The notes under the pieces are model-generated. The model ran no database searches. It was not told the origin of the DNA and worked only from the letters and a program-made list of their open reading frames with translations. The position numbers and the translations under genes were made by a program. A DNA stretch of 64,000 nucleotides from Sphagnum magellanicum (Eukaryota; Streptophyta; Sphagnopsida; Sphagnales; Sphagnaceae), in NCBI GenBank assembly GCA_021904315.1, contig CM038910.1, positions 23,942,256 through 24,006,255 on the forward strand. Reading direction: 5' to 3'. Shown here one piece after another: positions 11,727 through 48,740 of the stretch. Numbering within the stretch: the stretch's first letter is position 1; every line of letters begins with the position of its first letter.

Positions 11727-13915
11727 ATGGAAAATCCCGGCTATGGAAGAAAATGTCAACATTCGGAGAAGAAAGAAGAAGAAGAAGAAGAAGAATGTCT
11801 CTGTGTGTGCTCCAAGGGATTTGAACTGAAGATGTGTTTTTTGGTAGAGTTTTGCAGGCAAGGAGGAAGTCACAGAGCATTTGCTCAAGATTCCAGACGA
11901 TTTCGATGGCTTACAAAACAACAGCAACAGCAATATTATGCAGCAGCAGAAGTTGCAGAAGAGGTCTTCTTCAGCCAAGATCAGCATCCAAAGCTTGGAG
12001 AGAGTAGTGGAGCTGGACAACCATATTCTGACAGGCATCTCGGTCGACATCCAAGCTGGGCAGGTGGTGGGGATCATTGGCCCCAGCGGGAGCGGAAAAT
12101 CGACTCTGTTGAGAGCTATCAATCGGTTATGGGAACCACCTCGAGACTCCATCTTTCTCGACGGCGAGGACATCACCAAACTGAACGTCCTCACGGTCAG
12201 ACGTCGCATTGGCATGCTGTTCCAAACACCACTGCTCTTTGATGGTAAGTTCATGGCATCCATGTGCAGAAGAAGAAGATTCATGACATCCCATGTGCTC
12301 TGTAGATCTGTCTCTTGGGCATCATCATCATTCCATGTGGGTGCTCTCTGGCAGGTACCCATGTGCTTGTTTGCTCTCTAGCATCCATGTGTTCTCTGCA
12401 TTTTGCTCTCTGCAAACAACTCTGCAAAACTTGTCTTTCTTTCTCTTTGATGGTGGGTGATAGGCTGCCTGGCTGTCTATTTGAATCTCTTTCTTTCTTG
12501 CTTTCACAAGTAAAAATGTGTACATGTGATTGTGGTAGTGTAGTACTTGAAGAGCTCAAAAACCATTGTTTGTTGGGTTTTGGGGTTTGCCAGGAACTGT
12601 TGCAGATAATGTAGCTTATGGACCAAGACTTCAGGGAAAGAGATTGACTGATGCTGAGATTGAGGGATATCTACGGCAGGCAGATCTGGATGTGTCATTT
12701 GCTAAGAAATCTATCATTGGTCTTTCAGTTGGTCAAGCACAGCGGGTGGCTCTTGCTCGCACCCTTGCCAATCAACCTGAGGTATACATTTTGCCATGTC
12801 CCTCTTTGTCTCAAGACTCACACTGTCTACCCATAATAGTTATATGTATGCCTTTGGGGTGTTCTCTCCTGGAATCAAATGTGTTGTAGTGTGTGGGAAG
12901 GAAGCTTGCTGAGGAGAGAATTTTGATATCTGACAAGCATCAGACAGAAGGGTGAAATTCTTTTGGGAAATTGGTGAATCTCATTCACTCACCCTCTGGA
13001 GTAGAGTCCTTCCTTCCTTCTTTCCTTTGTTGTTTTCCTTTGCACCTCCTTCTGCTAACCCTCAAATTCCCTGCTGCTCTGTCCAAGCTGTGAGAGAAAA
13101 AAGCTCTAACAGTTGCAATCTGGAATCCAGTAATGTGTCATTATATGACTGTTGCTTGATGTGCACACACTAATAGGGTTTCGTCTGCAGATCAGTCATG
13201 GGTTCTGTATAGTTGATGCAATTGTTTTACTTCTGCACATCTGTAAGTTCTCTTGGTGAATCTGCTTCAAGCTCCAAGACATACAGTTGAAGAAACTTAA
13301 CAAATGCCTCTGATCTGATCGTTATATTTGGTGATAATAATGCTACTCTTTTTCTTTTTGTTTTAAACCCTTTTTTTGGAAGCTTTTGTCAGTATCAGCT
13401 TCAGTTTTGCATCTGTGAAGTTGGGGCAGAAGCCCATTGTGCTGCAGCTGGGCACCTGTTTTTCTTTTGCTGATTGCAGCAACACAGAAAAGGTGCTTTG
13501 AAGATTGTCAGTTCTCTCCTCTACAAGAGTGGCCAGAAAGTCCCATATTGAGCTGAAACATTCCCAAAATTCTTCAGCTGAATGAAGAAGCTCACTCCTG
13601 GGTAAACTCTTGAAAGAATGTTTTTTTAACACAAATTTTACTAATTGGGGGCAGGTTCTACTCCTCGATGAACCAACAAGTGCACTGGACCCAGTGTCAA
13701 CACGCCATATAGAGGAATCAGTGATGCACTTGTGCAGATCGACAGGCTTGACAGTCATCATGGTTTCACACAGTATTGAACAGGTGAAACGGATGGCAGA
13801 CCTGGTGTGCCTGGTGGTAGCAGGAGAGCTTATTGAGGTTTTGAAACCTACTGAACTGGTTTGTGCCAGGAATCCTCGAGCACAGGAGTATCTCAGAGCT
13901 GCTCAGCAGCAGTAA
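11727..13915 (+). CDS. STAR1: STAR1/ABCI17-like ABC transporter ATP-binding subunit
   Basis: ATP-binding half of a bacterial-type plant ABC transporter. In rice and Arabidopsis, STAR1 pairs with the membrane protein STAR2/ALS3 and is needed for aluminium tolerance. Well-supported exons: about 11852-12244, 12594-12781 and 13655-13915; they join in phase. Seen: Walker A GIIGPSGSGKSTLL, then NRLWEPP and FLDGEDIT (close to the Arabidopsis protein), Q-loop region GMLFQ, GTVADNVAYGP across the second intron, signature LSVGQAQRVALART, Walker B plus D-loop VLLLDEPTSALDP, H-loop VSHSIEQ, and the family tail EVLKPTEL. Length is about 260-300 residues, normal for the family. The start is uncertain: ATGs at 11727 and 11743 precede a GAA-repeat stretch and a possible intron that ends at TTGCAG near 11857. 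No membrane segment is present, as expected. Confidence 0.9.
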
Positions 13916-15460
13916 TATTTTCCAAAATCAAAATGTGCAACTAAAAGTGCTCTAATTGTGTGTGTGTGCACGTGCTTCTCTCTCTCCTCTCTCTCCTTGT
14001 CAAGGGGGGATGAAGATCCCCTCTCGAGTTTTTTGCTTCAGCTATGATCCCTCAAGGGTTCTCTGCAAGGGGGTTTTAATTTCTTACACAAATGCATGCC
14101 ACCCAATATTGGGTCTGGAGTTTTGTGGTTCTTACACCAATTGATCTGCTGCTGGTGCATGAAACAAAGGTGGTTGCAATCACATCCAGGTGTGTGTTTC
14201 TTGCCAATATGATTTACAATCTCCTATGTTGTGACATGCTTTATCTCATCAACAACAAACTTTTAGCATGGAAATTTTCATGCATGTCACAAAAAGATTT
14301 GTCAATCTTGATAACAACAGCAATCCAACAATTTCCCTCAACATATGAAATCCTTCAATAATTTTTTGTCATGAGTATGACTTTTCCCTCAAGCAAAACT
14401 TAGTAAAAAGAGAGGCAAACTTTGCTAACCCAAACTTCTGATTTTAAGCCTCTCTTCTGCATCCATTTTTCATTGCTATAGCATGGATGATCGATTGCCC
14501 TTGTTTGGAAAACTTAGACACTTTTGATAAATTGAGCTGTAGTAGGGGCCACAACTGGGACTGTGTTATTATTCCTCCCAAGACTTTGATCATCCCTTTC
14601 ACTCATTTACTATTAACAATAAGAATGAGTGCTTAATGTGAACAAAGTTGCTTGATCTGAGCTAAGGGTCTTAGCTATCCTTTGTGGTGGACTCCATGGA
14701 ACAGGTTTATCATGTTGTTTATGTGTGTGCAAAAATTCATCTTTTTTGAAGTTGGATCTCTTGCATCATCTAGTTTTCCTATTTCCAGTACATGTGGTTT
14801 TTTGTGAGCCTCAATGCCTGTTGTAGGGGCATGTTGCAAGGCACAACTCCTATTGGAGGGTGTGATTTTGTTGTGAGGCACAATTCCTATTTTAGGGTGT
14901 GATTTTGTTGTTAGGCACAATTCCAATTCTAAAGTGTGCTTTTGTGTGTGGTTTTGTTGCAAGGCACATTCCTATTCTGGGTTGTGTTATGGCTTTGATT
15001 GGAAATTGTGTGTTTTTTCACTTTAGGAATGGTATGCATGGGATTATTATATGTATGTGACTTTGCTTGTGACTTAGTAATATGTCTAATGCTAATAAGT
15101 CGGAGCCCATGACCAAATTTGGATCTGAATCAAAAATCATATTTACAGTTTATAGTTGAGTACATAAAAATTGAATAATAGGGTGGTCCTTCTTTTCTTT
15201 TTTTTTGAAAAAAAACTCATAAGACAACAAGGATTCCAAACTGAAATCATAACAGAATAATCTGTAAATTTGGGAATTATGACCACAAGTGGATCTGAAG
15301 CTGATTCTAAGGTGTTGATATACAACAACAATACATGAATATGTTCCCTTCATCATGTGATGATGTCCATTGCATGTCACAGCCGTCAACCACAGTAACA
15401 CTTGGTGAACATTTCAATATTGGGCGGTTCCTTGATTTTTTTCCCATAACTGCTGGTTCA
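13916..15460. other. intergenic, AT-rich, no gene seen
   Basis: Begins with the STAR1 3' flank. No convincing coding stretch on either strand. The only clear structure is the short tandem repeat near 14.84-14.99 kb, listed separately. Confidence 0.5.
14840..14987. repeat. short tandem repeat, unit about 37 bp, four degenerate copies
   Basis: Four successive units start with GGCACA(A)-TTCCTATT and end with a GTGTGATTTTGTTG-like part. The third unit carries a small internal expansion of TGTG. No coding role is apparent. Confidence 0.65.
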
Positions 15461-15464
15461 TTTC

Positions 15465-16060
15465 GCTAGAATTTGGATCAACTTTTTGAGCAAATGACTT
15501 AGCTAGCATGTAACTAATTGCCAGTTATCCCTCTACATTGCACCCTAGATGTCATGAAAACGGTTGGAATTTTGAAAATCCAAGTTGGTAGGTTGTGGGT
15601 CCTTTCTGGTTTTTTTTGTTTGAGTATGGGTTTTGAAGGCCTTTTTATGTGGGGCCTAGGGTGCACTGAGGCTGAATTTCTGTTCATACAACTTCCAAAG
15701 CATTTGGGAGTTCTTTTTTTGCACAAAAAGAATGAGTGGGGAGAGGGGGACTAGAAAAAAGAGAACGTAATTTTTTTAAATTGCAATTTGTGACTAAAAA
15801 AGAGTTGCAAAGAACACTAACAATTAAGTTTACATGGATAAACCCTAAACCCTTGTCATTACTTCCCATTATTTGTCACTAAATTGTATTCTAGTTATCA
15901 TAAGCATGAACAACAATGTAATGCAACTTGAATTTAATATTGAAAAGAAAGGAGATTGCATAAATATTGGGAGTTTATTCCTGGATATGGTGTTGAAAAA
16001 TAAAATAAAATAAAAAATAAATGTGAAAAGACAAATTTTTCATGCCACATTAGAGAATGG
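15465..16060. repeat. dispersed repeat, copy 1
   Basis: About 600 bp is recognisably the same sequence as 41565-42620. Shared blocks include CTAGAATTT..ATCAACTTTTTGAGCAAA, CTAGATGTCATG, GGTTGGAATTTTGAAAATCC, AAAAAGAATG and CCCATTATTTGT. This copy lacks the MITE found inside copy 2 and about 120 bp next to it. No protein or terminal repeat was recognised. It is probably a non-autonomous transposon or a decayed fragment. Confidence 0.75.
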
Positions 16061-16367
16061 GACAACAAATTAAATCAAACTGAAGCAAAAACAAATGAAA
16101 GTAAAATGTGCGATGTGAAATGAATGAATATATGGCCTAGCAATCAACTATAACCTTGTCTCTTTGCTGGAATAAGAGCGAATACAGGCTCTGGATCTCG
16201 AGAGAATGGAGTCATCTCCAAGATAAACCTAAAGATTGTGTCATGCTGGATGCTCGCAGACCTCCAGCATCGATAACTATCAAACTCTAAAAAAAATGAA
16301 AACAATCTCAACACAAACAGAAATTGAATCCCAACCAAAACCCACTCACCAATAGTGCATCAACATG

Positions 16368-19959: not shown

Positions 19960-22852
19960 GAATATTCGGCCTTCTGAAGACATGCTGCCACGAAGGTTGA
20001 GAACAACATATCGGGAAATGGGCATGCCACACAAATCAGACTCTTCATCAACTCATTCTTCATCAAATGACTTGTCTGCTCATGATGAAGGTGTCTCTCA
20101 ACCAGTTTAGGAAGCACCACTGCTTGCAAACCAAGAACAAGCGATGGATGACTTCATGGTTGACTGGTTTGGACTTGACATAGTTGATGATATGTCTGGC
20201 AACCCACATGATGAAGGAGCCAATGCAGATGATCCACGTCATCAACATACTGCCCAGGGACAACGGCAGTGGCAAGAGGCGGAGGCACATGTTCAAACAC
20301 CTATTTTTCAAGGTGCAAGGTTAAGCCGTTTAGCCCCCATACTGGGGTTGTTAAACATCCAAGCAAAACATAAAGCAAACAATACTATGTTGTCAGACAT
20401 TTTTCAGTATTGTCATAGCCTTTTGCTGCCTAAGGAAAATAATTTGCCAAGATCTTGGAAGGAGGCTAAAAAGATCTTATCTTCCATAGGCATGGAGTAT
20501 CAAATTGTCCATGCATGTGTTAATGACTGCATGTTATTTCATGGGAACAATGCCCATTTAACGGAGTGCGGTACATGTGAAGAGGCTCGATATGATCCTC
20601 ACATGCTTACAGGGAAGGTGCCCAGGAAATCAGTAAGGTGGTTTCCCATTATTCCTTGTTTGCTGCACATGTATCGATGTACAAACTTGGCTAAGTTAAT
20701 GGTTTGGCATAAGAAACATCGATCAGAGCTTGGTGTTATGAGGTTACTGATTGACTCTCATGCTCACAAGCATGTGGAGTCAACATGGCCAGAGTTTGAG
20801 CGTGACCCTAGGCATCTGAGGTTGGGGTTAACATCAGATGGTGTTAGTCCACATGCACTTGGAGGAAAGGGACGACCTACCTCTGTTTGGCCAATTGTTG
20901 TCATGAATTACAACCTTCCTTCGTGGTTGTCTATGAAAAAAGGATTTTTGTTACTTTCTCTTATTATCCTAGGGCCAAGTAAGGTGAAAAACCTAAACAC
21001 CTACTTAGCACTAATGGTCGATGAACTCAAAACACTGTGGGATGAAGTATGGGCATATGATGGGAGGAAGACCACTGGAGGAATACCACGTGTATTCAGG
21101 TTGAAGGCAATCTGCATGTGGACAATGCATGATTATCCTGGTAAGAAATCATGCACATGCCTCTATATATATTTTTATTATTCCGTTTTATGACTATTTG
21201 TTGTTCTAATATTCAGTTCTTCTACAATCAGGGTTTGGTTTTGTAAATGGGCTGCAAACTCAAGGTTGCAAGGCCTGCTCTACATGTGGCCCAAGTTTGG
21301 AGGACATGGCTAAATATTCAAGCCATCTTCGCAAAATTGTTTACCTTGGCCATACAAAGTTTCTTCCATTGGGACATGATATGAGATCATACCCACTTTT
21401 ATTTTCATCTTTTGACATGCCTTGTGGTGATGAGCGTGATATTCCAAAAGCTACCACTTTTGCATATTGGAGGGATGTGGCCAATAAAGTTACTGACCCA
21501 AATGATTCTATGGTGTTTGAAGGTAGTGGATTGACAAGGTGGGGTATACTCAACAGCTTGCCCTACTGGGGTGAGCTGAAAATAGGTCATCTCTTGGACC
21601 CCATGCACATTGAGGGAAATGTGGGAAAGGATATCATAAAACAGCTCTATGGAGAGAAGGACAGTAACTTTAGGGAGGCCTGTGAGGATTTTGAGAGGCA
21701 TCCCGATGTGTGGATTACTATTGATCCTAACACAGGTATTGAGCAACGACCATCAGCTCCATGGACACTTACTACACGGGAAAGAAAAGACTTTCGAAAT
21801 CGCATAGGAGAGATGCGATTCCCTACAGGTTTGAACTTTGATGGCAAGGGTTGAATTTAGAAGTACTCTGTTGCTTATTTATATTTAAATATGTATGCCT
21901 TATATTGGAAAAAGAGTTTGAAGTATAGAATGTTATCTGTTGGATGTCTAGAATACTTTTGTATAATTTTATGGATCCTTGTTGCAAGTTATGGAGCTAA
22001 TCTTCAAAAAGCTTTTGGTAGGGACGATGACCACAAGTGGCCAAGGTATCTCGAGACACATGACTATCATCGTTTAGTGCAGCACATATTGCCTGTGGCA
22101 ATAATAGGCTTAGCCAGTGCAGAAATACAAGATGCTCTTTGGTCATTGGGAAATTTGTTGAGATGGGTATGCTCAAAGGAGTTATTTGTAGAGGAGATTC
22201 CAAGAATGAGGGTAATAGCAGCACAGGTGGTATGCAAGTTAGAAAAGGCCTTCCCTCCATCATTTTTTGATTGTCAAGTGCATTTACTAGTTCACCTTAT
22301 GGATGAGATAGCCATTGTTGGTCCTGTGCATTGTCAGTGGATGTATTGGCTTGAAAGATATATGGCAGTATTAAAGGGTTATGTCCGTAACCATGCACAA
22401 GTGGAGGGAAGCATGGCAACAGGACACTTGGCAGCAGAGAGCATGTTTTATTGCATCAACATCTTGGCCACTATAGATCCATCATGTCTTCATGTCTGGA
22501 TGGAGGAAAGAGAAGAGGAGGAAGACCGTTTGACTAGTGCCATCAAAACACGTATGTTATTACCTACAGAGTTAATTCAGCTAACCACATTCATGTTGAA
22601 TAATAGCAATGTCATGGAAGAGTGGAGGAACTTCTATGAGAATGCCAAAAGTATGAGTGGGAGATCAAGGATTTTTCCTACGTTTCATAAGTACATGAAA
22701 GAGAAGTTGGCTGAAGTGGATCAATTGTTGGCACAAGGAGAAAGTATATCATGTTTTCCAGAGGTCATAGATGATGTTCGCACCATTGTTCATGGACCAC
22801 TGAGAGTTGTGACAACATGTTCAGCAATGTGGACACAAGGAAGACATTTCAG
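19960..22852 (+). CDS. CACTA transposase, TNP2-like (Transposase_21) with DUF4218
   Basis: The coding stretch runs 20111-21140, intron, 21232-21828, intron, about 21990-22852. An N-terminal acidic and serine-rich leader may reach back to 19960 across a TAG at 20108-20110 that could equally be a splice acceptor (TTTAG). Family marks: CVNDCMLFHGNNA and CGTCEEARY (the Cys-rich TNP2 start), a degenerate RLGLTSDGVSPH where active elements show LGLASDGFNPF, VWPIVVMNYNLP, FLLLSLIILGPSK, GCKACSTCGPSL and LDPMHIEGNVGKD. The last exon carries SHDYHRLVQH-like and PVHCQWMYWLERYM, typical of DUF4218. The first intron joins in phase (CCTG/GTAAG to CAG/GG). The second junction is off by one base as read, a sign of decay or an unseen site. 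It would cut and join DNA in the nucleus. Confidence 0.85.
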
Positions 22853-22927
22853 GTATTTATTTTTTCTATTTCATTAGGCATATTAACTCATCTTCACATT
22901 CCATACAATTTTTTTTGAATGTTCTAG

Positions 22928-23489
22928 GATGATTTTTATGGGCATGAAGTTTTTATTATCATATAAGTTGTTGACTCACAATGCCTAACACAATATTAAT
23001 TTCAAGATTTCCACTTTGGATGAAAAGAGGGGCCGCACCTTTGATTGTGGAGTTCAAGGGCAATTCATTCAGTACTCTAGAAGCAGTCGACATGACAGGA
23101 CTATTGTTCGAGATATTGTGCCACATTATGGAAAGCTAGAAGAAATCTTGGTGGTATTTTATGATGCACATTCAAAGTTTGAAGAGTATGTGTTTAAGTG
23201 CAAGTGGTTTAAAGTGAACCTTGTTGGTGCAAATCGCACTGTAATTCAGGATGAGTGCGGACACACATGGTTAAAGACATTTGCCACTAGTTATCAGCCA
23301 TCTCATTGGCAAACTTCAGAGCCATTTACTTTTCCCAGTCATGTAGAGCAATGCTTTTATCTTCCTTATCCCCCAGACCCAGAGGAGTGGTCACTTGTTG
23401 TCACATATGTCCCATGGTCCCGTTCTATTCTAGGTGAGAAACTAGAGGTTGTGTTTACAACCTCTGAGGTGGATGATGACCACGTATAA
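22928..23489 (+). CDS. DUF4216 module, C-terminal part of the CACTA transposase gene
   Basis: After a TTCTAG acceptor the frame reads DDFYGHEVFIISYKLLTHNA, then a stop, then about 160 codons with the DUF4216 pattern: VVFYDAHSKFEEYVFKCKWF, DECGHTWLKTF, PFTFPSHVEQCFYLP, and WSLVVTYVPWS. This domain follows DUF4218 in many plant CACTA elements. The stop near 22985 could be removed by an intron that ends at TTTCAAG before 23006. Function of the domain is unknown. Confidence 0.75.
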
Positions 23490-24529
23490 TGTCCATGTAT
23501 ATAGTATTGCAATTGAGCTACTGCCCTTGGTATATCTTCTGGATCGTCTAGCTCTAACATTCCAACCACCTTTCGTATAATGTTGGCATTCCTGTTCCTT
23601 AAGTATGCCTCATACCTCTATTCAGGAGTAGGCTCTGGTGGTAAAAATTCTCTGGCCATTACCTCCACTGGTTCCTCCTCCATTAATGGCTCTGGATCTG
23701 GCTCTTGTTGAGGCTGCTGGACATAGTCCCCTTCCTCTTCTTCAACTTTTGCTGCAGCTAGCCTTTCCTCCTCCTCATCACCCAGCTCTGGACTTGGATA
23801 CAGTTGCTCCATTCTTGTATCCATATAGTCTATGGGAATCTGAGTTGTCCCCATTCCTCCTTGGATTTCACTCCCCTGGATTTCACTCCCCTGGTCTGTT
23901 TGAGTCTCCATATCCCTTGTCCTTATAACTAATTCGACCCTAGAGTTTGGTCTATGTTGTCCTTGTCCCTCTTCTTGTCTTTCTCCTAGATTCAGCAAAA
24001 CACTAACCAGTCCTTTGGTGTCTGTCCCACTCTGCTGAGGTTTAGAAACCTATGAGTCCACTACTGCTGCTGCCATCAAAGGTTCCATCATATCTGTACT
24101 CTGTGGCTGATCTGAACTCATGTAAAAACTCTGGTCTCCTCCTTTAGTCTCACCATAATCCTCCAATGGTACCTCAGTGCTCTCCTCCTCTGTCTCCTCA
24201 TAAGTTGCCTCTTCCTCATCAGTGAGCTCATCCTCTGAAGTACCATATACTTCCTTAATTACTCTTCTAACTAGAACTCTATGATGCCTCTCTATTACTA
24301 GCTGGCAGTCCCCATAAGCATAAAGTTGAGCCAGATAACTGGGTAAATAACACAGCTTCTTAGGCCCCAATGCTCTAACCTCATCCTGTATCACTTTGTG
24401 CATGATGAAAGCCCAATTGATCTCCCTCTCTCCTGACCACGAAGCTATGACAGTATTGGCCCACTTTACTAGTATATAACTAGGCTTTTTGGGATGGAGA
24501 ATTGGTATCAAAAAATGAAAGAGCATCAT
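23366..24529 (-). CDS. unrecognised minus-strand reading region, mobile-element-like
   Basis: From 24529 the first part (159 residues) opens with a hydrophobic, tryptophan-containing region (FLIPILHPKKPSYI, WSGEREINWAFIMHKVI, LCYLPSYLAQLYAY). It then becomes very acidic (DELTDEEEATYEETEE) and later Gln/Pro/Glu-rich, including tandem EIQGSEIQG. It is broken at about two places. Its far end runs convergently into the DUF4216 reading. The pattern resembles the poorly characterised proteins found in plant mobile elements, but I do not recognise the family. It sits directly against the truncated NB-ARC fragment. Confidence 0.4.
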
Positions 24530-24589
24530 CAGCTTGAGATCCTTGCACTGTGAGATCTTGTAACCATGTGAGACTACTCTATCCTATGC

Positions 24590-25107
24590 AAAATATAGGC
24601 AGAGCAATGTTTGGAAAGACCTCACCTGAACTTCAATGGGAGCCACTACTGAAGAAGCTAAGGAAATCATGCATGCAAGAGGGGACGGTTGAAGAGAAGT
24701 TATATGGGTGTTTGAAGCTTGGCTATGATCTCCTGGCTGAGGATGATTGGCGCTTGAAGGAGTGTTTTCTTTACTTTGCAGCATTTCCTGAAGATTCTGA
24801 GATTCTTTTTGAAGACATTTTGTGGCATTGGATAGGGAAGGGGTTGGTTCCTGGACACGATGGAGATGATCCTAGAGCAGATGCATTTTCCTTGTTAAAG
24901 AAGTTGTGGGAGCGATCATTCATTGAGTCAGATGAAGAGGTTGTGTTAGATGAAGAGGATTTACTGACATTCAAGGTAAATAAGGTGATGAGACAGTTGG
25001 CTTACATATTGGAAAATGATAGTGGCACACCCCTTCCACAACAGCTTTATCTTTGTCGAGTAGGTCAAAATTTGGAAGAATTCCCACAAGAGTGGAAAGC
25101 TGAGGTA
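24590..25107 (+). pseudogene. NLR fragment: end of NB-ARC (ARC2/winged-helix) only
   Basis: About 170 codons match unit C from just after GLPLALKVIGG to just after the MHD-like region: AMFGK, ELQWEPLLKKLRKS, CFLYFAAFPEDSEILFEDI (RNBS-D), GDDPRADAFSLLKKLWERSFIES, FKVNKVMRQLAYIL (MHD motif altered to VNK), then EEFPQEWKAE. The P-loop, kinase-2 and GLPL motifs are absent; upstream sequence switches at about 24590 to unrelated DNA. The fragment stops at a good donor, GAG/GTAGGG (25105), and the next exon is the hydrolase. Either it is a dead remnant or its 3' donor is now spliced to the hydrolase. Confidence 0.85.
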
Positions 25108-25233: not shown

Positions 25234-28200
25234 ACTGCTGTTCATCAGCTATGGCCGCCTCCTGGAGACATGCGGAAAACAGAAATGAACATTCTGTTTT
25301 TCCATGGCTACGCTCAAGATCCGGATGGATGGAAGAGTGCGTGGACACAGCACAAGCACCCTGATGTGTGTTGGCCAGAGAAGTGGCTACCCGCTGACTT
25401 AGACTTTGATGTCTGGGTGCTGTTCATGTCATATTATGGTCAATTATGTGCCACTGATGTCGTCAATGTCCTCTTCAAAACTCTTGTCATCAGGTATGCA
25501 TCTGTCATGACATAGATAATTTAGGTCGGGTGTTCTGTCTGATTGGATTCCCGTTGGATTACTGGATGACTGGAAACCAACTGGTGGGTCCAGTACATCA
25601 AGCTGCAATGATGAAGTGGATTACAAATTATGATTCTAAGCCCATATGTCCTTTGGCCGGGACATTGATGTGTGTCTGTGCAGGGACGAATGGCATCTAT
25701 GCAAGAATCATCAACCGCTTGTGCTGGTAGGCCGTGGCTTTGGAACACTAGTGCTAGATAACTTGTTTGTGAAGGCCATGGAAGAGGTGGTGACTAGCCC
25801 CACAGAGGCAGGGGCATTTGTGAGGAATGTGAGAGGTGTTACCTTATATGGAGACAAAGTCAAGAGCTATAAAATTGAAAAGTTTTTCGGGGGGAGGTCG
25901 GAGCACATCAAACGAGTTGCAACCTTCATTCCCAAATTGCACCATGCTGTTTTCATTACACAAGGGAGCATACTCATTAATCGTGCCATCTATGGAAAGA
26001 ACCTCACATGAGATGTACGTATATACAGCACTTACACCAATTCGGAAAGCTCTTGTGGTCTAATATGTCTCTGATATTCTCATTCCTGTATGGACCACAA
26101 CATCTACGTGGTTCTACCTGTGGATAATTTTAATGAACTTGAGTTATGCATAGGTGGTGGGAATGGATCCATGGCAATGGATTAAAGAGGACATATGGGA
26201 TGTCTGGGACCCTGAAGTCCAGTGGAAACCTGAAAGCAAACAGAGTCGAGGCTACAATCTGCTTCTGGAATCATGTCGAATTGTGGTGAGTGCTTTAGTA
26301 CCACTTGTTCTCAGCTACAATAACTTCCTACTGTCTTCTACAAGTTCAATAAAAGCATTGGTTTGCTCAACAATTTTCCTCTTGCAGACAGGGCTTCTGT
26401 AGAGAAGAGGCGCCCACAATCTTGTTATCAATCACATTTCTTTGTTTGTAGTTACTATATGTTTTTGGTCATTGGGTCACCTCTAGTCTGAATAAAATTG
26501 CTAGAAACGTTCAATTAAAGCTTGTACTTTAGGTCATGTAACCTCTGACACAAGAAGTGTTGGTCTAAATTCAACATACAAAAGAAGGTGATGTTGCCCC
26601 AAATGCCAAGTCTAACTATAAGAATGGTCACAATGTTCGGTAAACTATCTAGCCTCAAAAAGTGGAATGTGGACCTTTTGAACCCTAGGCTAACAAATGG
26701 GCACTTTCACTCAGTGTTGCTCAAATTAGGAAGGCTTGACACCTTGTAAGCACATGATGAAAGCATTTTCCAACAATATAATTTTTTCGGCTAACTGTCA
26801 TTTAGTTGTCTAATGTATAGGAGAAAATACTAATTGCAAACACCTCGTTTTTGTGGTAAAACAAGATCCATGTATGCCACAAATCTAAATCTACAAATTT
26901 TTGTTGTTTGAGAGTTTACATGAAATTTCAAAAGTGGTAATAAGTTGGTTTGTCTTGCTTCAGTACCAACTTGAGGCTATACGTGCAATATTAGAACACC
27001 TTCAACAAATGTTGGACAACATTACTACGGCATGTGATATTTCAAATTACTCTGACTCTATGTTTGAGAATGAGTTCACATACTTGCAACGCAATGGAAT
27101 TGAAGGGGCCAAGATCTTGATTGTCCAACGTATGCTTGCAACAGTGGGTGTAGATGTTGAGCAGCACATGGTTGCGAAAAAGTTTGATGATGGTGAACAG
27201 CTTGAGAATGAAAGAAAGCTTGCTATTTTGAAGTTCACTGTTGCAAGGTTCTGTGAAAGTCATGAATGGCATATGGTTCCTAAAATGAAGGAATCTGATA
27301 TGCGACATAAAATTGAGAGCAGTCTAAATGATGTTGTGCATGGAATTTCCCCATTGAGTGACGATGTTGTGAATGAGAAAATGCGGAGAGAGAGGGAAAG
27401 AGAGATGGACCATTCAGGCAGGGAAACCTTTCGTAGAGATGGTATTGATACTGTCCCCATTCACTTTCCTAGCATCAGGGAACAGAGTATTATGAGTGTC
27501 AAGCAGCTTCAACAATTGGCTTGTAACATGCGACCTGGAGAAAATGTGCCAGAAGAAGATGTGCAGGAGCAATTGGCGGCACACATGGCACAAGTTCTAC
27601 ATGGGGGAAAGCTAATTGTTACTGCAAATATACTTGAAGGCAAGATACAGTTTCTCTTTGGAAATGCCAAAAGCATGGCCCAAATTGTGGGGGTGGGACT
27701 TGATTTTGCAACAGTTTCCTTGACTTGCCAAAATGTGATAGTTGTAGAGGGTATCACTGAATTGGAGTGGACCAGATTATGGGGAGAAGTGTTCCTTGGG
27801 GAAAGTTTGTTTGAAAACCCAATTTTCATGGAAAAGGTGGTAATCTCTCCACCTGATCATGAAAAGCCACAAGGTTCACATGTAAATGCATTGTTAAAAG
27901 TTGCAATGTTTTTCATGATACAAAAGTTCCTGCAAAATTTTGATGTTGGAAAGGTATACAACCAAGTAGTCAGAGGTGTAGCAACTATAATGACAGAAGA
28001 GAATCAGTCTGATATTGGGCAGGTCCATGCTAAAAGTGTCAATGACCCTAGCACAAGAATCTTGGGATTCGACTTGTGGGATTACTTATCAAGGTTGCAA
28101 ATCACGAGGGGGCTTGGCAGTGCCACAAGTGATACTAGTGGAGAGGGGGGTAGTCATGTTGGAGGTACAGATATTCCCAGTGAAGGAGACAATCAGGGTG

Positions 28201-28472
28201 GTGATGGCGGGCAGGACGATGACAATCGCGAAGGTCGAGGAGCGAGTGCCACAAGAGATACTAGTGGAGAGGGGGGTAGTCATGTTGGAGGTACAGATAT
28301 TCCCAGTGAAGGAGACAAGGATCAGGGTGGTGATGGCGGGGAGGACGATGACAATCGCAAAGGTCGAGGAGCAAACGGAAGAGAAATACAACAAAATAAC
28401 CAACGGGATGTTCGTGTGATAGTTATTCCGGGTTCTGAACATGGGGTCTGGAATAGGAACCCTGTACAGTGA
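25234..28472 (+). CDS. chimera: alpha/beta-hydrolase exons joined to a domain of unknown family
   Basis: Exons 25234-25493 and 25684-about 26015, 26153-26286, then 26962-28472. The first three align exon by exon with the hydrolase of unit C: HQLWPPPGDMRKTE, ILFFHGYAQD, VCWPEKWLPADL, then LVLVGRGFGTLVL where unit C has IGHSFGGLVL. So the nucleophile position Ser is Gly, and the hydrolase is probably inactive. The second exon has a frame slip before its donor (near 25970), so it may be a pseudogene. Where unit C continues into NB-ARC, this gene continues after TTGCTTCAG (26961) into YQLEAIRAILEHLQQML and about 500 residues. These hold a helical start, an Arg/Glu stretch (REREREMD), a conserved-looking core (IQFLFGNAKSMAQIVGVGLD; WTRLWGEVFLGESLFENP) and a Gly/Asp-rich duplicated tail. 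No known domain is recognised. Confidence 0.6.
28123..28376 (+). repeat. in-frame tandem duplication of 126 bp inside the unknown domain
   Basis: Two copies 126 bp apart, exactly 42 codons, each encoding SGEGGSHVGGTDIPSEGD followed by GGDGG-x-DDDNR-x-GRGA. Near-identical bases show a recent duplication. The reading frame is kept, as expected under coding constraint or by chance with a multiple of three. Confidence 0.9.
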
Positions 28473-29397
28473 GGCTGTACCTGAACAGCTAGAGGGTAGT
28501 GACATAGACCCTATACCTGAACAGCTGAAGGAAAGCTACATAACTCCAACTTTCACGTTTTTGTTTAAAAAAACAGAAAACACCATAGAGTCCGAGGTTT
28601 TGGTGAAATGTTGCATGAACAAAGGAAGTTCATGTCAAGACTCAAAACGTTTTGGTTGGTTTTAAAACGAGCTAGATGTATCGTTCCAATGTTTGGAACC
28701 TGATGCTGCAACGCCTTCTCCCAGCAAATTACTAGAATCGCAAAATTTGAAGTACACCATTTTGGAGCAGACACAAGCCACTTCTGCTCAACTCACACTA
28801 GGAGCGACAGGGGGATGCAATGGCGTTGCTTCTGTAACAGCTTCTTTGAACAAGCCATTAGCATCAACTTTGCAGTTGAACCAAAGGGTGATAGAAATAT
28901 CATCTGAGTTCATAAGTGGCACTAGATTTCGCGCCGACTGTGTTGATCGAGGAGGGGCAACGCCGATGTTAGGGTATAATTTCAAACTTTGGCCAGAGGT
29001 TCCAGCAAACAAGTTACCTGATGGATTCGATGAGGAGAAGTATAAGGGCACCCTCTGCACAGTTTCCCCGAACTTCAAAGCCAATTGGAGAGTGACGCGT
29101 CAAGATGTAATATGTAAATACGAGTTGAAAGTGAAGAGGCATGCATGTGAGTTGGTTTTGGTTGCCAAAAAACCTAAGATGTGGGGACTAGGGAAACAAA
29201 AGCTCTCATGTGCTTGTAACAAAATCTTGCAGACATACATGGTGACACTCTACATCAACCACAACATGTCAAACATTGCAACACTTGCAGAGTCTGAGCG
29301 CACACTTTGGAAAGACAACCCAAAGAATAAATTGGTGGGGTTAGGTGTGCATCCTAGTAATCCTGCTTTTGATGAAGCTTCCTCTGGCACTCAGTAA
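28441..29397 (+). CDS. beta-rich reading region following the chimera, unknown family
   Basis: Starts within the end of the previous frame and lies one frame over, so it may be the next exon or a shifted continuation. It carries one in-frame stop (28663-28665). Segments: PEQLEGSDIDPIPEQLKESY (two PEQL units), ITPTFTFLFKK, SEVLVKCCMNKG, then after the stop YTILEQTQATSAQLTLGATG, LNQRVIEISSEF, GYNFKLWPEVPANKLPDGF and VICKYELKVKRHACEL. Alternating polar and hydrophobic residues suggest a beta-sandwich. I do not recognise the family. Confidence 0.45.
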
Positions 29398-29560
29398 CAC
29401 ACTTTGTAAACACAACCCAAAGAATGAATTGGTGGGGTTAGGTGTGCATCCTAGTAATCCTGCTTTTGATGAAGCTTCCTCTGGCACTCAGTAACACACT
29501 TTGTAAACACAACCCAAAGAATGAATTGGTGGGGTTAGGTGCGCATCTTGTTTCTCCCAA
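29314..29560 (+). repeat. tandem repeat, 97-bp unit, about 2.6 copies
   Basis: CAACCCAAAGAAT begins units at 29316, 29413 and 29510, each followed by TTGGTGGGGTTAGGTG and, in the first two, a GATGAAGCTTCCTCTGGCACTCA-type end. A unit of 97 is not a multiple of three, so only the first copy is read in frame (NPKNKLVGLGVHP). The expansion lies at the 3' end of the gene and its second copy is past the stop codon. Confidence 0.9.
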
Positions 29561-32500
29561 TTTGGAGGATGAACTTGCTAGTAGTGTTGTTTTGGTTTTT
29601 TTTTTTCATGATTTCTCATGGGATTGAAGTGTCAATTGGTGGACTGGACTACGGAAGGATGAGGAACTGCTGCTATTTGAAGGCTGGTGGTTTTGCTCAA
29701 CAACACGGTGGAGGAAAGATGAGGAGGAGAGCTAAGTATTCTATGTTTGGATTATGTGTTGGGAATAATATAGTGCTGGTATAAGTCGAAATGTAAAAGA
29801 GATGAATGCTCTTGGTGCATATTATTGTTCTCCACAATTCCATTGCATTGGAAAAACAGTGTATTATATAATAGTTTGTGTCATAGGCTGGTGGTGAAAG
29901 TGATGCAGAGCTCAGAGGATTCGTGAATGACTACCTTTTATGAGATTGTGCAAAGTGAGATGGGACTTGTGATGTTGAGGGAGTGAATGCCCTGGTTGGC
30001 GCTCTGGGATGGGGATCTGCAGCAGTTCATTTGTTTGCGGTTGGGACTGAAACTCGTTTATCCTTTGATGCCTCAGATCTTGGGACAGTGATGGGATTCC
30101 TTGCTTGTGAAAACTTTTGGGATTTCAGAGAGAATGGGGTGTAGCAATGCCATAAGGTAGTCAGTTGATGTTTAATGAGAGTGACTCCAGAGTGTTCTGA
30201 TTCACCTAAACTTTAAGTCTTAGAAGTCACAATTGTGTAGATTAATGTAGTTGAGGCTGTAAGCTTTAGCAGGTTTATATAAGAATACTAGAATAAAAAG
30301 AGTGTTTTTCATTTTTATGTTACCACCTCTTTTGGCCACAATGTGCTCTCAAATGAGAGTCACAATTGAGAACTACTAGAGTGACTTGGTCTTGTACAAT
30401 GTTGCTAAGAAAAAAATCAGTATAGCATTGAGGCTACATCTTTGAAAGAGAACGGTGGAGATGTCCATTCACCACTTTAAAGACTCCAAAGGATTGTTGG
30501 AAAAATGAGAACAATTGCAATTCTTGTGACAAAAAACTGTGCCTCATTTTTGCCTCTTCCCCAATATCACATGACTAGGAAGAATTGCCCACTAGTTTTA
30601 AAGCTTGGCCTCCTGATTGTCATATTATGCAGCATTGCCACATTTTTGAACCAATGTTGTTTTCTTGACTCCTTCACACCACTAGCACCCTAGCATTCAC
30701 ATGAAAATGTTGCATTCAGTTTTTGTAGTAGGATGAATATCAATGTCAAGGAGCTCAAACCTATTGTGACAGAATTACAAGATTTCATTTGTATTGAAAA
30801 AAACTATGGAAATATATTGTGCATGTAGGAGATTTCCACATACTCTTAGAGGTTTGATGTAAAGGATGGAAGCTTTTCATCTTCCATGAAAATATCAAGC
30901 AAGAGATTGAAAAGCTAAGTGTTGCAAAAAGGGAAGAGATAGAAAGCAAGTGTGTTCTAGAGTTTCATTACACAACTGATGCTTGGAAAAAACGGCAACT
31001 AAAGGTTCCTCTACTTGACAACAAATTTGTTCTTGAATTTTTAGCTACAATACTTCCTTTTGACCAAAACTCATGAAATCGCCTTCTTTGTATACATTTT
31101 GTGTCCCTGTTCTTGTGACTTGAGAAATAATATGTCAAAATCAAATCTCATGATGCACAATTCTGTTTCATGCAAACAATGCCTGTCCATCAATGTGCCC
31201 AACTAAGACCCTAAGACATATGGCCATGTCTATGAAGAGCTCCCAAGCTATTTATTACCCTTGCTGCCAGGAAGAAGCAGAATTCAACTGCTGAAATTGT
31301 TTCAGCATTAAGGATAGAGGAAAGAAATTGGAGCACCATGCATTGGCCCTAGAAATTCCAGCAGGTAGGCCTCTTTGCAAGAAGGAATAGGATGTGCACA
31401 ATGACTAATTTTTAGTGCTAAATCACATGTCTCTCTGTTAATTGTTTGCCCAAAAGCTCATTCATAGATGCCACTAGAGAAGTCTAGTCTTGTGTTTGGG
31501 TGGTTCAAACACCTCAAAAAGCTCTAGGTCTATTGTAATCTTCACTCCAAGTTGCCTAGGAATGACTTCTGTTAAAGCCTAAAGGTCTTCTTCTTGGGTT
31601 TCGTGATCTTGGATAGTATTACAAGGCATGGTGGTTCAGTTGTACATTAGTTTTGCACCCGAAATTTAAACCAGCTCATTAGAAAGATCTTGGATAGTGT
31701 TGTATTCTATTGAATACATCCTCCAGAGCAAACTAACAAACTCTTGCAACAAATATGAGTAGCTGAATCAGCACAGATGAGTTGCATGTTCCAGTTAAGA
31801 AAACATATGTTAGAATGATCACCAATTAGGGCCAAATGTTGGCATTAATTTGCATGATTGGTTCATAATTGTAGATGCACCAACTAATGTAAATGAAAAA
31901 GAAAAAAGGAACCATGTTTTACCCACATTCATCTTTGTTTAGTTCAGACCTCTAAGGTGGATAATGGGAACACTGTTACAAAGTTTTTTCCTTGGGAAAT
32001 TTCTGCTCCATGAAATTTGTCTCATGCGAGGTGCTTGACAAACTACCTTTTCTTAGGTGTTCATGATGTCGATGGTACATCCTTTTCCTAGGAAATTTCT
32101 CTTTTTCACACCATGACCGCTTGGGCATTTCTTGCTGGAACAATTCCAATCGTCGGTCCGCTTGCAATGGCCTTAAATCGATGGAGCTAGGAGCATTGGG
32201 GTTTTCGTTTTCCAATTGTGTCGTATAGCAAAACTTGCGATCATCCAAAAGAAGATTTAGCCAAATCTGGCTATGGACCAGGTATGAAAGTTTTTTAAAA
32301 AAATCCTTTTATATTTTGGCAACCCTATTGGAACCTGTTGTAGAGGTATGGCAATTTAATTTTTTTCTTTTGAAATCTGATGAATTATGGCCTTTATTTT
32401 GTTACAGCAATCCTTGGCATATGTGGAAATTATTTTTTCAAGTTAAAAAAGAAAGTGAAAATTGGTGGCTAGGGTGAAATGATAACCAGGTTGGGAGGTT

Positions 32501-38560: not shown

Positions 38561-41560
38561 ATTTGAGTTTTATTCATTTCCTTCGCTTCATAACAAAGGT
38601 GAAAAGAATGGGCCATTTGCCTAATTGTCTCCACCTCACAAAAACATGCAAATTGAATCAAGTGGTTGGACCTAATTCCTTTTGTTTCAAGATGAAGAGA
38701 ATTAGGTGGTCATTTGATTGTCTCCACCTCACAACAAATGTGTGAAGTGAATCCCACTATTTCATTCGTGTGGAGTATCAAGCAATCATATGATTCTTAT
38801 TGTACTCACAATGTGTGGTGGAAAAACATAAAACCCAAAAACATGTTATAGTTGTAATTGATGACTTTTGCTAGATGTTCAAATGAGATAGGAATATAAA
38901 ATCTTACAATCTCATGTACATGGAAATTTTTTTCTATTCACTATATTTACAATTAATTATATGGACACACATATTTGCACCTTAAAGGATATGCATTGGT
39001 CTTGGACATTACAAGGGTGCAAAATTGACATCAATATATTGGTGCTTTTGGACTTGAAAATCACATTATTATAGTTTTCAACTTATTATGAAGGTCTTTG
39101 AAAACGCTAAATTGTTTTTTTTTAATCCCTTTGCACAATGTTTTAAAGACCTTGGACTATGTGGGGTTTTTGGCCAATAAAAGACATTTTGCTTCATGTT
39201 AAATAATCCAATGTCCACATTTTAATGTCAAGTCATGTTATGAAGGATGTCATGATGCATGGGGTTGAAAACTTAACATGTACAGAGATGAAATCATTGG
39301 ATGCACTTTTCAACAAGACCAATGATGACATTCAAAATCATTGTTTTGGTTACAAGGATGGTCTTTTGCAAATTGAATTATTTCATTTGCATAGGTTAAA
39401 AAGTCACCTAAGTGATGCCAAGGTTTTTGGAATTGGAAGGAGGAGGTGGTATGTAAGGAAATCTGTCATTTTGAATCAATGGAATTACAATTGTTAAGGG
39501 GTGGATGATTACGTGTGGCCTTAAGGAACTTGCTCTTGATGAGAATCTTAGTGAAAATCATGTCAAAGTAACAATATATGGAATTGCCAAATCACAAATC
39601 ACAAATTATGTCCATTTGGATATATGAACATTGATACAAACAATTTTTGATGGATGTTATCATTGGTCATTGTTTTCTTCTTATGATCAACATCACATGT
39701 TGGAAGATGATGAGGAAAAAAACAATTGGTGTAAGTAAAAAATTTAATACACGATTGTTAAAAGAACACATAAAGATTCAAATGTGGATAGTTTTGTTTC
39801 AAAGATTGAAAAACCTTTGTATGATGAGCCACTATAATGCGAGCACATGCATATGTTGTTGTATAAACTAAAACTAACACTTTCCTTGTCATAAAACATC
39901 TATCATCAAACAATAATTTTGGGACTTGTTATTTGGAAATAAAATATCCCATGTCTTGGATGTTCCAAACATGTTGCATGAAAGAATAATAATAATAAAT
40001 GAAAGTTCATGAAAATACAAGGAAAGGGTATTCATGAAATTTTTAGTACACTATCATTGGGTTGGCACAATTTATTTACATGTCATATAAGCAAGAAAAA
40101 TAACATGTATAGACATAAGCCACAAGGCAACATTGGGATGAAGAAACAACATTGTGTAATTAAGCAAGTGAAATCCAATGTTCAATCATTCATTGAGCAA
40201 TGCCTTGATATAATGCTACATGAAATGAAAAGAAGTGGAAATGGTTGACAAAACATTCACCTTCTAATTCCAAACACATGGAAATGTATTCGAGAATGGA
40301 ACAATGAGGTATGCCAAATCTCACACATATGTATACTTTTCCTGTTGATTAACAATTATGTAAATATGAGATGCTACATAAAATTAGTTCTAACAATTTT
40401 CATTATCATATGTGTGTGATTATAGATTAACAAGGAACTAAAATATTGATAGAATCTCTTAATATGTTATGAGCTAATTGAAAAGGAAACATCATCTCAA
40501 TGTGGATGTCTAAAAAAAAGGCTCGACCTTTTCCAAATGCATAGTTTAAGAGTCATTGAAAAAAATGAATTCTAAAGTTGGAAAAAGAAAAGTTAATGAC
40601 AACGAACACAAATTGAAACTCAAAAGGCATAACAAGATATTGTCATATAAGTAATTTTTTCTTAGTTGGAAAGCAAATCCATTCAATCAAAGGAGGAGTT
40701 CTTGTGCATCATTCGTAGTAAAATCGATCATTGCAAGATTCATTACCAAGTTTCCAAGAGAAAAACAAAACGGTTGCTAGGGTTGGTCAATTTCCAATGA
40801 CATTCGCCAACATGATTGTTCATGGGCATGGGGATAAGACACTTGTTCAATATTCCAATAAATTTTGAACAAGTGACCCTATTTCATTATTGGATTGCTT
40901 TTACATTTGTTAAAAGCTTTGGGGATGGAGGTAATTTGTAAGTCGAATTTTTTTAATATTTTTTTTGGATGATTTCAACCTCCATTTTTATTTTACATTG
41001 AAAACACATTTTTTATTGAATCATTATTAAACTAATAACGTGCTTTAACATTTGCTCCTTCCCACCCTTTGTACATATGACCCTCACATAATATTTACAT
41101 AATTTTAAAAAATACCACAAATTTACAATTTATGATTTATGAAACAAAATAAATAAATAAATAATTGAATACCATAAATAATATTGAAATGATTCCATTA
41201 TGGTTGTTTCCACGTGCATTTTCCTATTCTTATGTTTTGCATTCGCATCTATTCCTTTGTTAATAATCTTTTGAATAATGTCAACATATTCACATGAAGC
41301 CTAATTAAATAACGCATGCTCATATGTCAATAACATAACATGTTGAAATAACGTTGATACAAATGAGTTTTGACCAATGCGTAATAATGATATGATGCAA
41401 TGTGTAACAAAAAAATAAGTTCTCCTTATTTGCACCAAAACTAAAAGCATTGACAAAAGAAGAAAAAATCATATATTCTTGCGGAGCAAGAAAAAAATCC
41501 AAGTGTTCTTAAAACAAGAGATATTAATACATGCCAATATTAAACAATCAATTTTCATTT
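38561..41560. other. AT-rich, decayed, no identifiable gene
   Basis: Scattered open stretches (39225-39497, 39647-39871, 40009-40248 on the plus strand) of ordinary amino-acid make-up are separated by stops and may be one decayed coding unit. I could not assign a family. Confidence 0.35.
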
Positions 41561-41564
41561 CTCT

Positions 41565-42620
41565 AGAATTTAAATCAACTTTTTGAGCAAACAACTTGGC
41601 TAGCATGTACTAATTGTCGATTGTCCCTTTGCATTGCGCCCTAGATGTCATGTAATGGTTGGAATTTTGAAAATCCAACTTGGTAGGTTGCAGGTCTTTT
41701 CTTGTTTTCTTTTCTTTGAGATGAGTTTTGAAGCCTTTTTTATGTGAGGGCTTGTGTGCATTGAGGTTGAATTTAAGTTGATACAATTTACCATGCAATT
41801 GGGGGTTTTTTTTTTTTCCCCCACACAAAAAGAATGGGCGAGGAGAGGGGACTAGAAAGAAAAAATGTAATTTTTTAACTGCAGTTTGTGATTAAAAAAT
41901 AGTTGCCAAGAACATTAACAATAAAAATTACATGGGTTGGATAAGGCTTGCTTTACACTAGGAGTCAGGGCCAAAAAAACTTGGGGCCAACTTTGAGCAT
42001 TTTTGGGTTGCAAATTGTCCCCAAGTTACTAATAAATGCTAGAAGATTGGCCCCAGGGGTTGCAAATTGGCCTGCCAAATTTGATGGTCTCCTTTTTTCA
42101 GCCTTGGGGCCAATACAAGGCCATAAAGTTCATCATTTATTAGTACTTGGGGCAGATTGAAAAGTTTTTTTTTCTATTTCAGTGACCCTTGACTCCTAGT
42201 GTAAAGCCTTTGGGGCTGATTTCAACTTTTGCACTAATAGGAATGTTGGATTTGGGTTCAACATTGGTCCTGACTCTTAGTGTAAAGTGGGCCTAAGTGT
42301 AGTCGCATGTAACATATAGTCACATTTGCTAACCTCATTGTGATGTCGACACAAAATCAACAAATGAAATATATAATAAATGGATACACTTTTATTGGAG
42401 GACCAATTATATAACCCTTGTGATTATTTCCCATTATTTGTGACTAAATTATAATCTAGTTATCAGAGGCATGAATAACAATGTAATGCAAATGCAAGTT
42501 GAATTAAATATTGAAAATTTACTCAAGAATATGCTGTTGATTAAAAAAGTTTTAAAAAATAAAATCCTGAAAAGGCACTTTTTCATGCCTCACATGAGAA
42601 AGGGTCAAACAAATTTTAGT
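41565..42620. repeat. dispersed repeat, copy 2, split by a MITE
   Basis: Same sequence as 15465-16060 on both sides of the inserted MITE. The left block runs to about 41940 (ACATGGGTTGGATAA). The right block resumes near 42410 (ACCCTTGTGATTATTTCCCATTATTTGTGAC). About 110 bp between the MITE and that point have no match in copy 1. Confidence 0.75.
41945..42294. mobile_element. MITE, PIF/Harbinger-like, nested in the dispersed repeat
   Basis: Terminal inverted repeats of about 28 bp: left GGCTTGCTTTACACTAGGAG (41945 on), right the inverse of GCCCACTTTACACTAAGAG (42266-42294). Possible target duplication TAA on both sides. A third copy of the terminal motif, TGACTCCTAGTGTAAAGCC, lies inside at about 42188, suggesting a composite or rearranged element. 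About 350 bp, no coding capacity. Confidence 0.75.
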
Positions 42621-46900: not shown

Positions 46901-47693
46901 CTTCTTCTTCAAACACTGTATGGGAGCGCAAAGGTACATGGTCAAGGAGCCAAGTTCATTTGGCGCACAATGGGGCAAACTCCTGACATAATGGCCCTAT
47001 ATCGGAGCCTAAGTGAAGAACTGGGTCTCAAACCAGAATTGAATGTGAACACAGAGGATTACAAGCTCAAATTACACTTTCAGTTCAGATGGAAACGAGT
47101 GTTCCTGGTTTTTGGATGATGTTTGGCAAGACAAAACATTTGATTTACTTGACTTAGCCAAGGGAAAAGGAAGTGTCACATTGTTGAGCACTAGAAACCA
47201 GTCTTTATTGGAAAGAGGAAGTCCACAGATAAGCCAAGAGCATATGACTCCTCTTTTAAAGGAGGATAGTTGGAGCCTCTTTTGTATGCGTGCATTCAGA
47301 GCACCATCCAATGTTCCATGTGAATTAGAGGCATTGGCACAATCCATGGCTGAGGAGTGCCGAGGTCTTCTGTTAGCTCTCAAGGTTATAGGCAGAGCAA
47401 CACCTGAACTTCAATGGGAGCCACTACTGAAGAAGCTAAGGGAATCACACTTGCAAGAGAGGACTGTTGAAGACGAGTTGTATGAACGTTTGAAGCTTGG
47501 CTATGATTTCCTCTCTAAGGATGATTGGCACTTGAAGGACTGTTTTCTTTACTTTGCAACATTTCTTGAGGATTGTCAGATTTACTTTGAAGACATTTTG
47601 TGGCATTGGATAAGGGAGGGGTTGGTTCCTGGAAATGGTGGAGATGATTGTAGAGTGGATGCATTTTCCTTGTTAAATAAGTTGTGGAAACAA

Positions 47694-48740
47694 TCTTCTT
47701 ATATATTAAAGCGACAGTGGTGTCTGTCTGTCTGTGTGGGCAGTGCCTAAAAAAATTTTCCAGGGCGGCCAGGGCAGACACCTGCCCACAGCAGGTCATT
47801 TTTAGTTACGCCTGAAAAAGCAACAGTCACTGCCCGTTCCTTGTGGAGCTTCCCTAGATGTAACTTCCCAAGATGTAACTAACTCCACAGAAAAAAGAAA
47901 TCAGGGGCAGTCTGATTTTTTGAGGCAAAAGATTTGGTAGACTAGAAAAAAATATTTAGGCATTGGACAGCCCAAAATCTTTTTTTTTTTTTTTTTTGTA
48001 TTGACCAAGACTACCTTTTTTTTCTTTTAGCTATTGTCCGTACCGATTAAGGGGACGGATGAAATGTTCATCTGGCTTGATGATGGGACGGATTTAGGGG
48101 AAGATCAGAAAAAAATATTTAGGCCTTGGACAGCCCAGAATCAATTTTAATTTTTTTTGTATTGACCAAGATTACCTTTTTTTTCTTTTAGTTACTGTTT
48201 GTTCCAATTTCCCGATTAAGGGGAGGGATGAAATGTCCGTCCGGCTTGATGACGAGACAGATTTAGAAGAAGACCAGAAAAAAAATATTTAAGCCTTGGA
48301 CAGCCCAGAATCAATTTTATTTTGTTTTTGTATTGACCAAAATTACCTTTTTTTTCTTTTAGCTACTATCCATCCCAATTAAGGGGATGGATGAAATGTC
48401 CGTTCGGCTTGATGACGGGATGGATTTAGGGGAAGACCAAAAAAAAAATATTTAGGCCTTGAACAGCCCAGAATTTATTTATTTATTTTTTTATTGACCA
48501 AGATTATCTTTTTTTTCTTTTAGCTATTGTCCGTCCCAATTAAGGGGATGGATGAAATGTTCGTCCGGCTTGGTGACGGGACAAATTTTGGGGAAGCTTT
48601 TTTTCTTTTAGCTACTGTCCGTCCGGTTGGATGATCACAAAATAATAATAAAAATAAAAAACACATAACAATAAAAAAATAAAAAGGTTAAAAGTTTCCG
48701 GGGGACTTCACAGTGACCGAAGGTCACGAGCACCCACTAG
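47694..48740 (+). mobile_element. non-autonomous Helitron, 1,047 bp
   Basis: Begins TCTTCTTATATATTAAAG and ends with a hairpin GTGACC-GAA-GGTCAC (48713-48727), then GAGCACCCACTAG, the standard Helitron 3' end (hairpin, about 10-13 bases, CTRR). It sits between A and T (CAA/TCATTC) with no target duplication. Removing it on paper gives the same spacing as unit C at the same place. No Rep/helicase gene. The middle is a tandem array (next entry). Confidence 0.93.
47930..48620. repeat. tandem array inside the Helitron, unit about 165 bp
   Basis: GGACAGCCCA recurs at about 47965, 48128, 48298 and 48461 (the last as GAACAGCCCA), spacing 163, 170 and 163. Each unit also has TTTTTTTCTTTTAGCTA, ATTAAGGGGA.GGATGAAATG and CGGCTTGATGACGG. 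A truncated last unit ends near 48620. Such minisatellites are common inside non-autonomous Helitrons. Confidence 0.85.

Follow-up and report, generated by a model that had tools for sequence, protein, structure and literature searches.

Hydrolase-NBS-LRR receptors, termed HNL or Hyd-NLR, carry an alpha/beta-hydrolase ahead of NBS and LRR domains, and are described from liverworts and some mosses (PMC3352924, PMC11218826, PMC10952240). The class was defined in Marchantia, where phase-0 introns lie within the hydrolase, at its boundary with the NBS, and between the NBS and the LRR; the same paper proposes exon shuffling as the origin of the receptors (PMC3352924). Hyd-NLRs have also been reported along with a first survey of the domains at their N-termini (PMC11218826), and a further paper describes them as bryophyte-specific (PMC12512272). 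Little is said to be known of the biochemical function of the hydrolase, with EDS1-like action raised as one possibility (PMC10952240). The EDS1 plan, as outlined in PMC9153377, is a hydrolase fold with a helical EP domain. Among the titles in the matches listed by a literature search, none concerned an HNL-class hydrolase with a partner other than an NBS.

We consider here a locus of Sphagnum magellanicum that shares the hydrolase module of these receptors and differs from them in most other respects. On the plus strand between 24.6 and 29.4 kb of the window (the whole stretch of DNA analysed, 64 kb in length), four parts lie in a row: an NBS piece, hydrolase exons, a long frame called X, and a second frame. 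The hydrolase of 25234-26285 is referred to as locus C, and the comparators are receptor gene A and copy B, both within the same window. The features are as follows:

24594-25104, plus strand: truncated NBS fragment of a hydrolase-NBS-LRR receptor (ARC2 and winged helix; Pfam WH_DRP, 30.3 bits)
25234-25493, plus strand: hydrolase exon 1 (TAVHQLWPPPGD...), phase 0 in and 2 out, located by tblastn
25684-26014, plus strand: hydrolase exon 2, with the catalytic elbow; donor 26015 in phase 0, located by tblastn
26154-26285, plus strand: hydrolase exon 3, the catalytic-His region; phase 0 in and out, located by a shuffle test
26286-26963, plus strand: putative intron of 678 nt leading from the hydrolase to X, from splice-site scoring
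26964-28472, plus strand: domain X, 502 codons, family unassigned; open frame to a TGA, with 3-base periodicity
28441-29397, plus strand: downstream open frame, out of register with X and perhaps its broken continuation
45382-48941, plus strand: copy B, a broken tandem copy of the receptor with in-frame stops
51060-54979, plus strand: gene A, with hydrolase (GHSFGG, NHMEVCKP), NB-ARC and LRR; apparently intact, first coding exon not located

Gene A has Pfam matches to NB-ARC (132.3 bits), LRR_14 and WH_DRP, and its NBS-LRR stretch is one open frame. Its hydrolase is encoded at 51060-51358, 51658-52045 and 52144-52296, and phase 0 holds both at the 3' boundary of the third exon and at 52553, where the NBS exon probably starts. 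Copy B is 84% identical to gene A in nucleotides over 1763 columns; its winged-helix region is interrupted by four copies of a 161-nt tandem repeat (47946-48596). As had been proposed, the three exons of locus C match the receptor hydrolase exon for exon and with the same phases (0 in; 2, 0 and 0 out). The donors of C at 26015 and 26286 are in phase 0, as in gene A and as described for the class, whose introns inside the hydrolase and at the hydrolase-NBS junction have this phase, and an in-frame ATG (25228) lies just 5' of exon 1. Identity between the spliced hydrolases of C and A is 36%, and over aligned codons it is 45% in exon 1 (86 codons), 52% in the front of exon 2 (50 codons) and 31% in exon 3 (42 codons). 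In tblastn searches of the window, exon 1 of C found gene A at 51072-51350 (E 4.7e-20) and exon 2 found it at 51650-51838 (E 5.9e-9). The match of exon 3 to gene A is short (~21 residues), with a local score of 36 that was reached by none of 2000 shuffles.

Profile searches place gene A just inside a known family, its hydrolase reaching the cut-off of DUF676 (PF05057, putative serine esterases) at 20.3 of 20.3 bits, whereas the C hydrolase, which has lost the Ser and His discussed below, was not matched by this profile at E up to 1. Rows for Herpes_UL79 and Pox_L5 among the hydrolase exons did not reach the respective cut-offs and were regarded as chance matches. A search of PDB sequences with the gene A hydrolase gave rows only at E 0.29 or worse, and two patterns found no prokaryotic outgroup for the module. 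The hydrolase exons show only weak codon periodicity, in gene A as much as in C; codon log-odds did not clearly separate the frames, the gene A hydrolase included, and were left unused.

The catalytic elbow that reads GHSFGG in gene A (51689) reads GRGFGT in locus C (25730-25747), with six substitutions at three replaced codons, and the Gly originally reported in place of the nucleophile Ser is indeed there. The translation of exon 3 of C contains no His. In gene A the motif NHMEVCKP (52216) holds the candidate catalytic His of the fold, and a gap-free extension of the aligned block gives DPEVQWKP as its counterpart in C. The catalytic acid could not be placed in C, since the last part of exon 2 has no alignment to gene A. 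An active alpha/beta-hydrolase is expected to have a Ser in GxSxG and a catalytic His, and C has neither. With both residues gone and the frame kept over a long divergence, the analysis supports the earlier proposal that this module is a hydrolase-fold pseudo-enzyme, as judged from its sequence.

The frame of ~500 residues and unrecognised family that was said to follow exon 3 exists, at 26964-28472 (502 codons, then TGA). Measured from stop to stop it has 527 codons, and none of 1000 order-1 resamples of 26600-28800 held a frame as long (longest 242). Its 3-base periodicity reaches a z of 17.2 over 26964-28110, the periodicity of the tail beyond being inflated by a 126-nt repeat; residues 1-382 of X are followed by a Gly/Asp-rich tail with two such repeats (28124-28372). 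No significant match to X was found in Pfam, NCBIfam, PHROGs, PADLOC or PDB sequences, and for the frame 26889-28469 Pfam returned 0 families at E up to 1. Scans of viral contigs and prokaryotic genome contigs with a small set of short peptide patterns, suited to close relatives only, confirmed no relative of X. Within the 64 kb window tblastn found X once, and it carries no transposase, gag or pol domain of Pfam. AlphaFold models made without an alignment had a pLDDT of 34.6 for X (389 residues) and 32.0 for the downstream frame, and were not usable.

The downstream frame runs over 28441-28662, meets a TAA at 28663-28665, and is open again over 28666-29397 (243 codons), a length attained in none of 1000 resamples of 28473-29600 (longest 218). 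Periodicity was rejected as proof of coding for this frame, with a z of 3.2 against 4.9 in a control stretch (29600-30500). It has no significant match in Pfam, NCBIfam, PHROGs, PADLOC, PDB sequences or viral contigs, its sole PHROG row standing at E 0.17. A 97-nt tandem repeat at 29301-29547 (2.5 copies, 97% match) repeats the last 31 codons of the frame and its stop.

The reading that we favour, with confidence a little short of even, is of a once-constrained pseudo-hydrolase of an old lineage, plausibly joined to X at the phase-0 boundary intron, in a copy that has recently died. At the core of the locus would be a gene whose hydrolase module, of the kind used by hydrolase-NBS-LRR receptors, belongs to an old lineage. 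The catalytic Ser and His would have been lost in that lineage, probably while the frame was still under selection, and the module would most likely have been spliced at the phase-0 boundary intron of the class (26286-26963) to X and not to an NBS-LRR. A hydrolase fold that no longer cuts might act as a binding or assembly surface, either as a decoy or as an EDS1-like scaffold, and X might be the output or partner-binding part of the fusion.

The junction on which the fusion depends lies at 26285/26964, a correction of the 26286/26962 first given. The donor of exon 3 (GTG/GTGAGT) ranks among the top 1.7% of GT sites, and X is entered in frame precisely at an acceptor of phase 0. On an approximate splice-site matrix, this acceptor (26963) scores 2.15, fifth among those in 26300-27100, where the best (26387) scores 4.19. 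The original prediction had joined the hydrolase to X with the nearer, better-scoring acceptors between them unnoticed; its joint is compatible in phase and frame, but it is unproven, the acceptor at 26387 giving a 102-nt intron and a terminal exon from 26388 that reads TGLL-stop and ends the hydrolase. We place the splice from hydrolase to X at about even.

A minority view, though one to be taken seriously, is that the locus holds two separate relics: a stand-alone hydrolase-fold gene ending at 26388 with TGLL-stop, and an independent X gene that begins either at 27009 or in a 5' exon not yet seen. The 102-nt intron with the best site score of the intron region fits this account, as do the in-frame ATGs within X at 27009 and 27060 and the different histories of the parts of the locus. 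It leaves as coincidence the opening of X in frame exactly at the phase-0 acceptor, and no first exon for X has been identified. The receptors themselves are also instructive, as within the intron between hydrolase and NBS the near acceptor of gene A (52384) scores 4.63 and gives EVSKNA-stop (region 52297-52405), and that of copy B (46560) scores 3.65 and gives EVSKYA-stop (region 46495-46581), yet the NBS exon lies further on, at a site scoring 1.98. Because A and B show a similar near acceptor with an early stop, the acceptor at 26387 is compatible with the far splice to X. The EVSKNA-stop and EVSKYA-stop ends in A and B could mark a candidate hydrolase-only isoform, or could be chance. Counting against the fusion are the single sighting of the hydrolase-X pairing, which follows from no relative of X having been found, and the position of the C hydrolase, which has no identified first exon and has an NBS fragment upstream.

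Two ages are seen in the one locus. Between C and A, exon 1 of the hydrolase has a pS of 0.754 and a pN of 0.335 (pS 0.76 between C and B), and the front of exon 2 has a pS of 0.744 and a pN of 0.286. The age of exon 3 is less clear-cut, with a pS of 0.69 to A (42 codons) and 0.84 to B (35 codons). The full 228 codons aligned to A, which take in the poorly aligned tail, give a pS of 0.712 and a pN of 0.398, figures to be read with the caution that misalignment of such diverged proteins would inflate pS. The synonymous sites of the C hydrolase thus appear to be near saturation. A and B differ from each other by a dS of 0.11-0.40 in the four stretches measured, and since pS to C is ~0.75, the C hydrolase was not brought by the tandem receptor copies. 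It represents instead an older lineage with the module and introns common to the receptor class. Derivation from a neighbouring receptor with its NBS-LRR swapped out, as first envisaged, is contradicted, the hydrolase having split off long before the tandem copies arose.

As pN is low against pS, replacement changes appear to have been held back and the protein kept for most of that time. Stop codons tell a similar story in simulations of neutral drift (600 runs each, started from gene A and the present X and not from the true ancestors). At 0.3 substitutions per site a stop-free hydrolase acquired a mean of 6.3 stops, with a P of 0.012 for one stop or fewer, and the C hydrolase has one in 241 codons; for X, with no stop in 502 codons, P was 0.008 at 0.1 substitutions per site. 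With so few stops in the hydrolase and none in X, decay would be recent, and the death of the copy is judged to be recent relative to its divergence. The loss of Ser and His, for its part, more likely preceded that death.

The NBS fragment directly 5' of the C hydrolase, which was overlooked when the locus was first described and left that picture incomplete, is of another age. At 24594-25104 it is 81.8% identical in nucleotides to gene A at 53212-53709, lacks both P-loop and LRR, and has a dS of 0.26, a dN of 0.17 and a dN/dS of 0.68 against gene A, with a dS of 0.19 and 0.23 against copy B in two parts. With this young receptor fragment directly upstream of the old hydrolase, locus C is composite. 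The 3' end of the fragment is a phase-0 GT donor (25105; GAG/GTAGGG, in the top 1.9% of GT sites by the approximate matrix). This donor lies near where the NBS-LRR intron outlined in PMC3352924 would fall, a placement that is suggestive only.

An ordinary decayed tandem receptor copy, in which a transposon or rearrangement put junk in the place of the NBS-LRR and the loss of Ser and His was pseudogene decay, is an improbable source of the locus. Its dS and dN/dS do mark the upstream fragment as a truncated tandem copy, copy B is visibly broken, and pieces of transposase (tnp2, DUF4218) lie at 20111-22877. The C hydrolase, however, stands outside the tandem family by its pS to A and B, and drift of 1.0 substitution per site predicts ~ten stops in it where one is observed. 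This explanation is already contradicted for the hydrolase and stands for the NBS fragment.

The transposase pieces found with Pfam 5' of the locus are of CACTA type and occupy several plus-strand frames; beside them, a match to DUF4216 (22989-23486) falls short of the cut-off. Two minus-strand frames, 24053-24583 and 23618-24046, adjoin each other, and neither has a significant Pfam match. The upper end of the first meets the 5' end of the NBS fragment, possibly marking the break. One transposon carrying the whole locus was considered and rejected, as a scan for paired CACTA-type ends, covering 10-23 kb for the left and 22.5-40 kb for the right, gave two weak pairs, and no target-site duplication accompanied either. 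Inverted repeats between 15 and 33 kb were likewise unconvincing as element ends among the 25 longest of 44 pairs, several of which span the locus but are short and 70-94% complementary.

The suggestion that the present copy may be dead had been tied to a frame slip in exon 2. The tail of this exon (25846-26014, the last ~55 codons, after RNVRGV..Y) matches neither A nor B in any frame, and in six tests (three frames by A and B) its score was equalled or exceeded by 303-921 of 1000 shuffles, so that its alignment in all three frames was indistinguishable from shuffles. A slip is not demonstrable; the elbow frame stays open to a TGA, and donor 26015 has phase 0, the phase that exon 3 requires. 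It is the in-frame TGA at 26009-26011, the penultimate codon of exon 2 and one codon before the donor, that supports the death of the copy, and the slip does not. We infer that the copy is now dead, as the TGA, perhaps with a register change near 28440, means that the whole fusion cannot be made by it. It is very unlikely that the gene is alive and still yields a functional pseudo-hydrolase-X protein, with the TGA explained by a sequencing error, by polymorphism or by its removal in splicing: the single stop across hydrolase and X up to 28470 and the look of recent constraint in both halves speak for it, but the phase-0 GT sites before the TGA fall within the conserved RNVRGV part or ahead of it, or seem unconvincing on visual inspection, the register change may lie near 28440, and no first exon has been identified.

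Set beside the described HNL and Hyd-NLR receptors, locus C has a homologous N-terminal alpha/beta-hydrolase module with phase-0 introns inside it and at its 3' end, and differs in its missing catalytic Ser and His, in X as the next long frame in place of NBS-LRR, and in an NBS piece that is upstream, truncated and of another age. After the C hydrolase, no NBS with a P-loop was found (no NB-ARC in X or the downstream frame by Pfam, no NBS-LRR match by tblastn), and Pfam found no LRR family in either frame. The likeness to EDS1, PAD4 and SAG101 is confined to the order of domains, in which a C-terminal domain follows an alpha/beta-hydrolase fold (PMC9153377), along with a possible non-enzymatic role. 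Neither X nor the C hydrolase has a Pfam match to that family, and no shared sequence was shown. An EP domain, for which Pfam presumably contains a model, was not among the results for 26889-28469 at E up to 1.

The loss of Ser and His in a lineage whose frame was maintained would suggest that the fold is useful without catalysis, and another partner spliced at this boundary intron would speak for the exon shuffling proposed for these receptors in PMC3352924. With the copy broken and the fusion unproven here, the value of the locus lies in the search for relatives. By analogy with EDS1, bryophytes might have elsewhere an intact family in which X is fused, across the phase-0 boundary intron, to a catalytically dead relative of the receptor hydrolase, acting through its fold as an NBS-free helper or decoy; we regard this as doubtful, though worth stating.

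No match to Rfam was found in the 64 kb window. Elsewhere in it, a dispersed repeat pair (15457-16071 and 41554-42615) is 72-82% identical. An exon at 371-892 encodes Mad3/BUB1 homology region 1 (41.1 bits), and another at 11848-12381 encodes the ATPase domain of an ABC transporter (66.1 bits).
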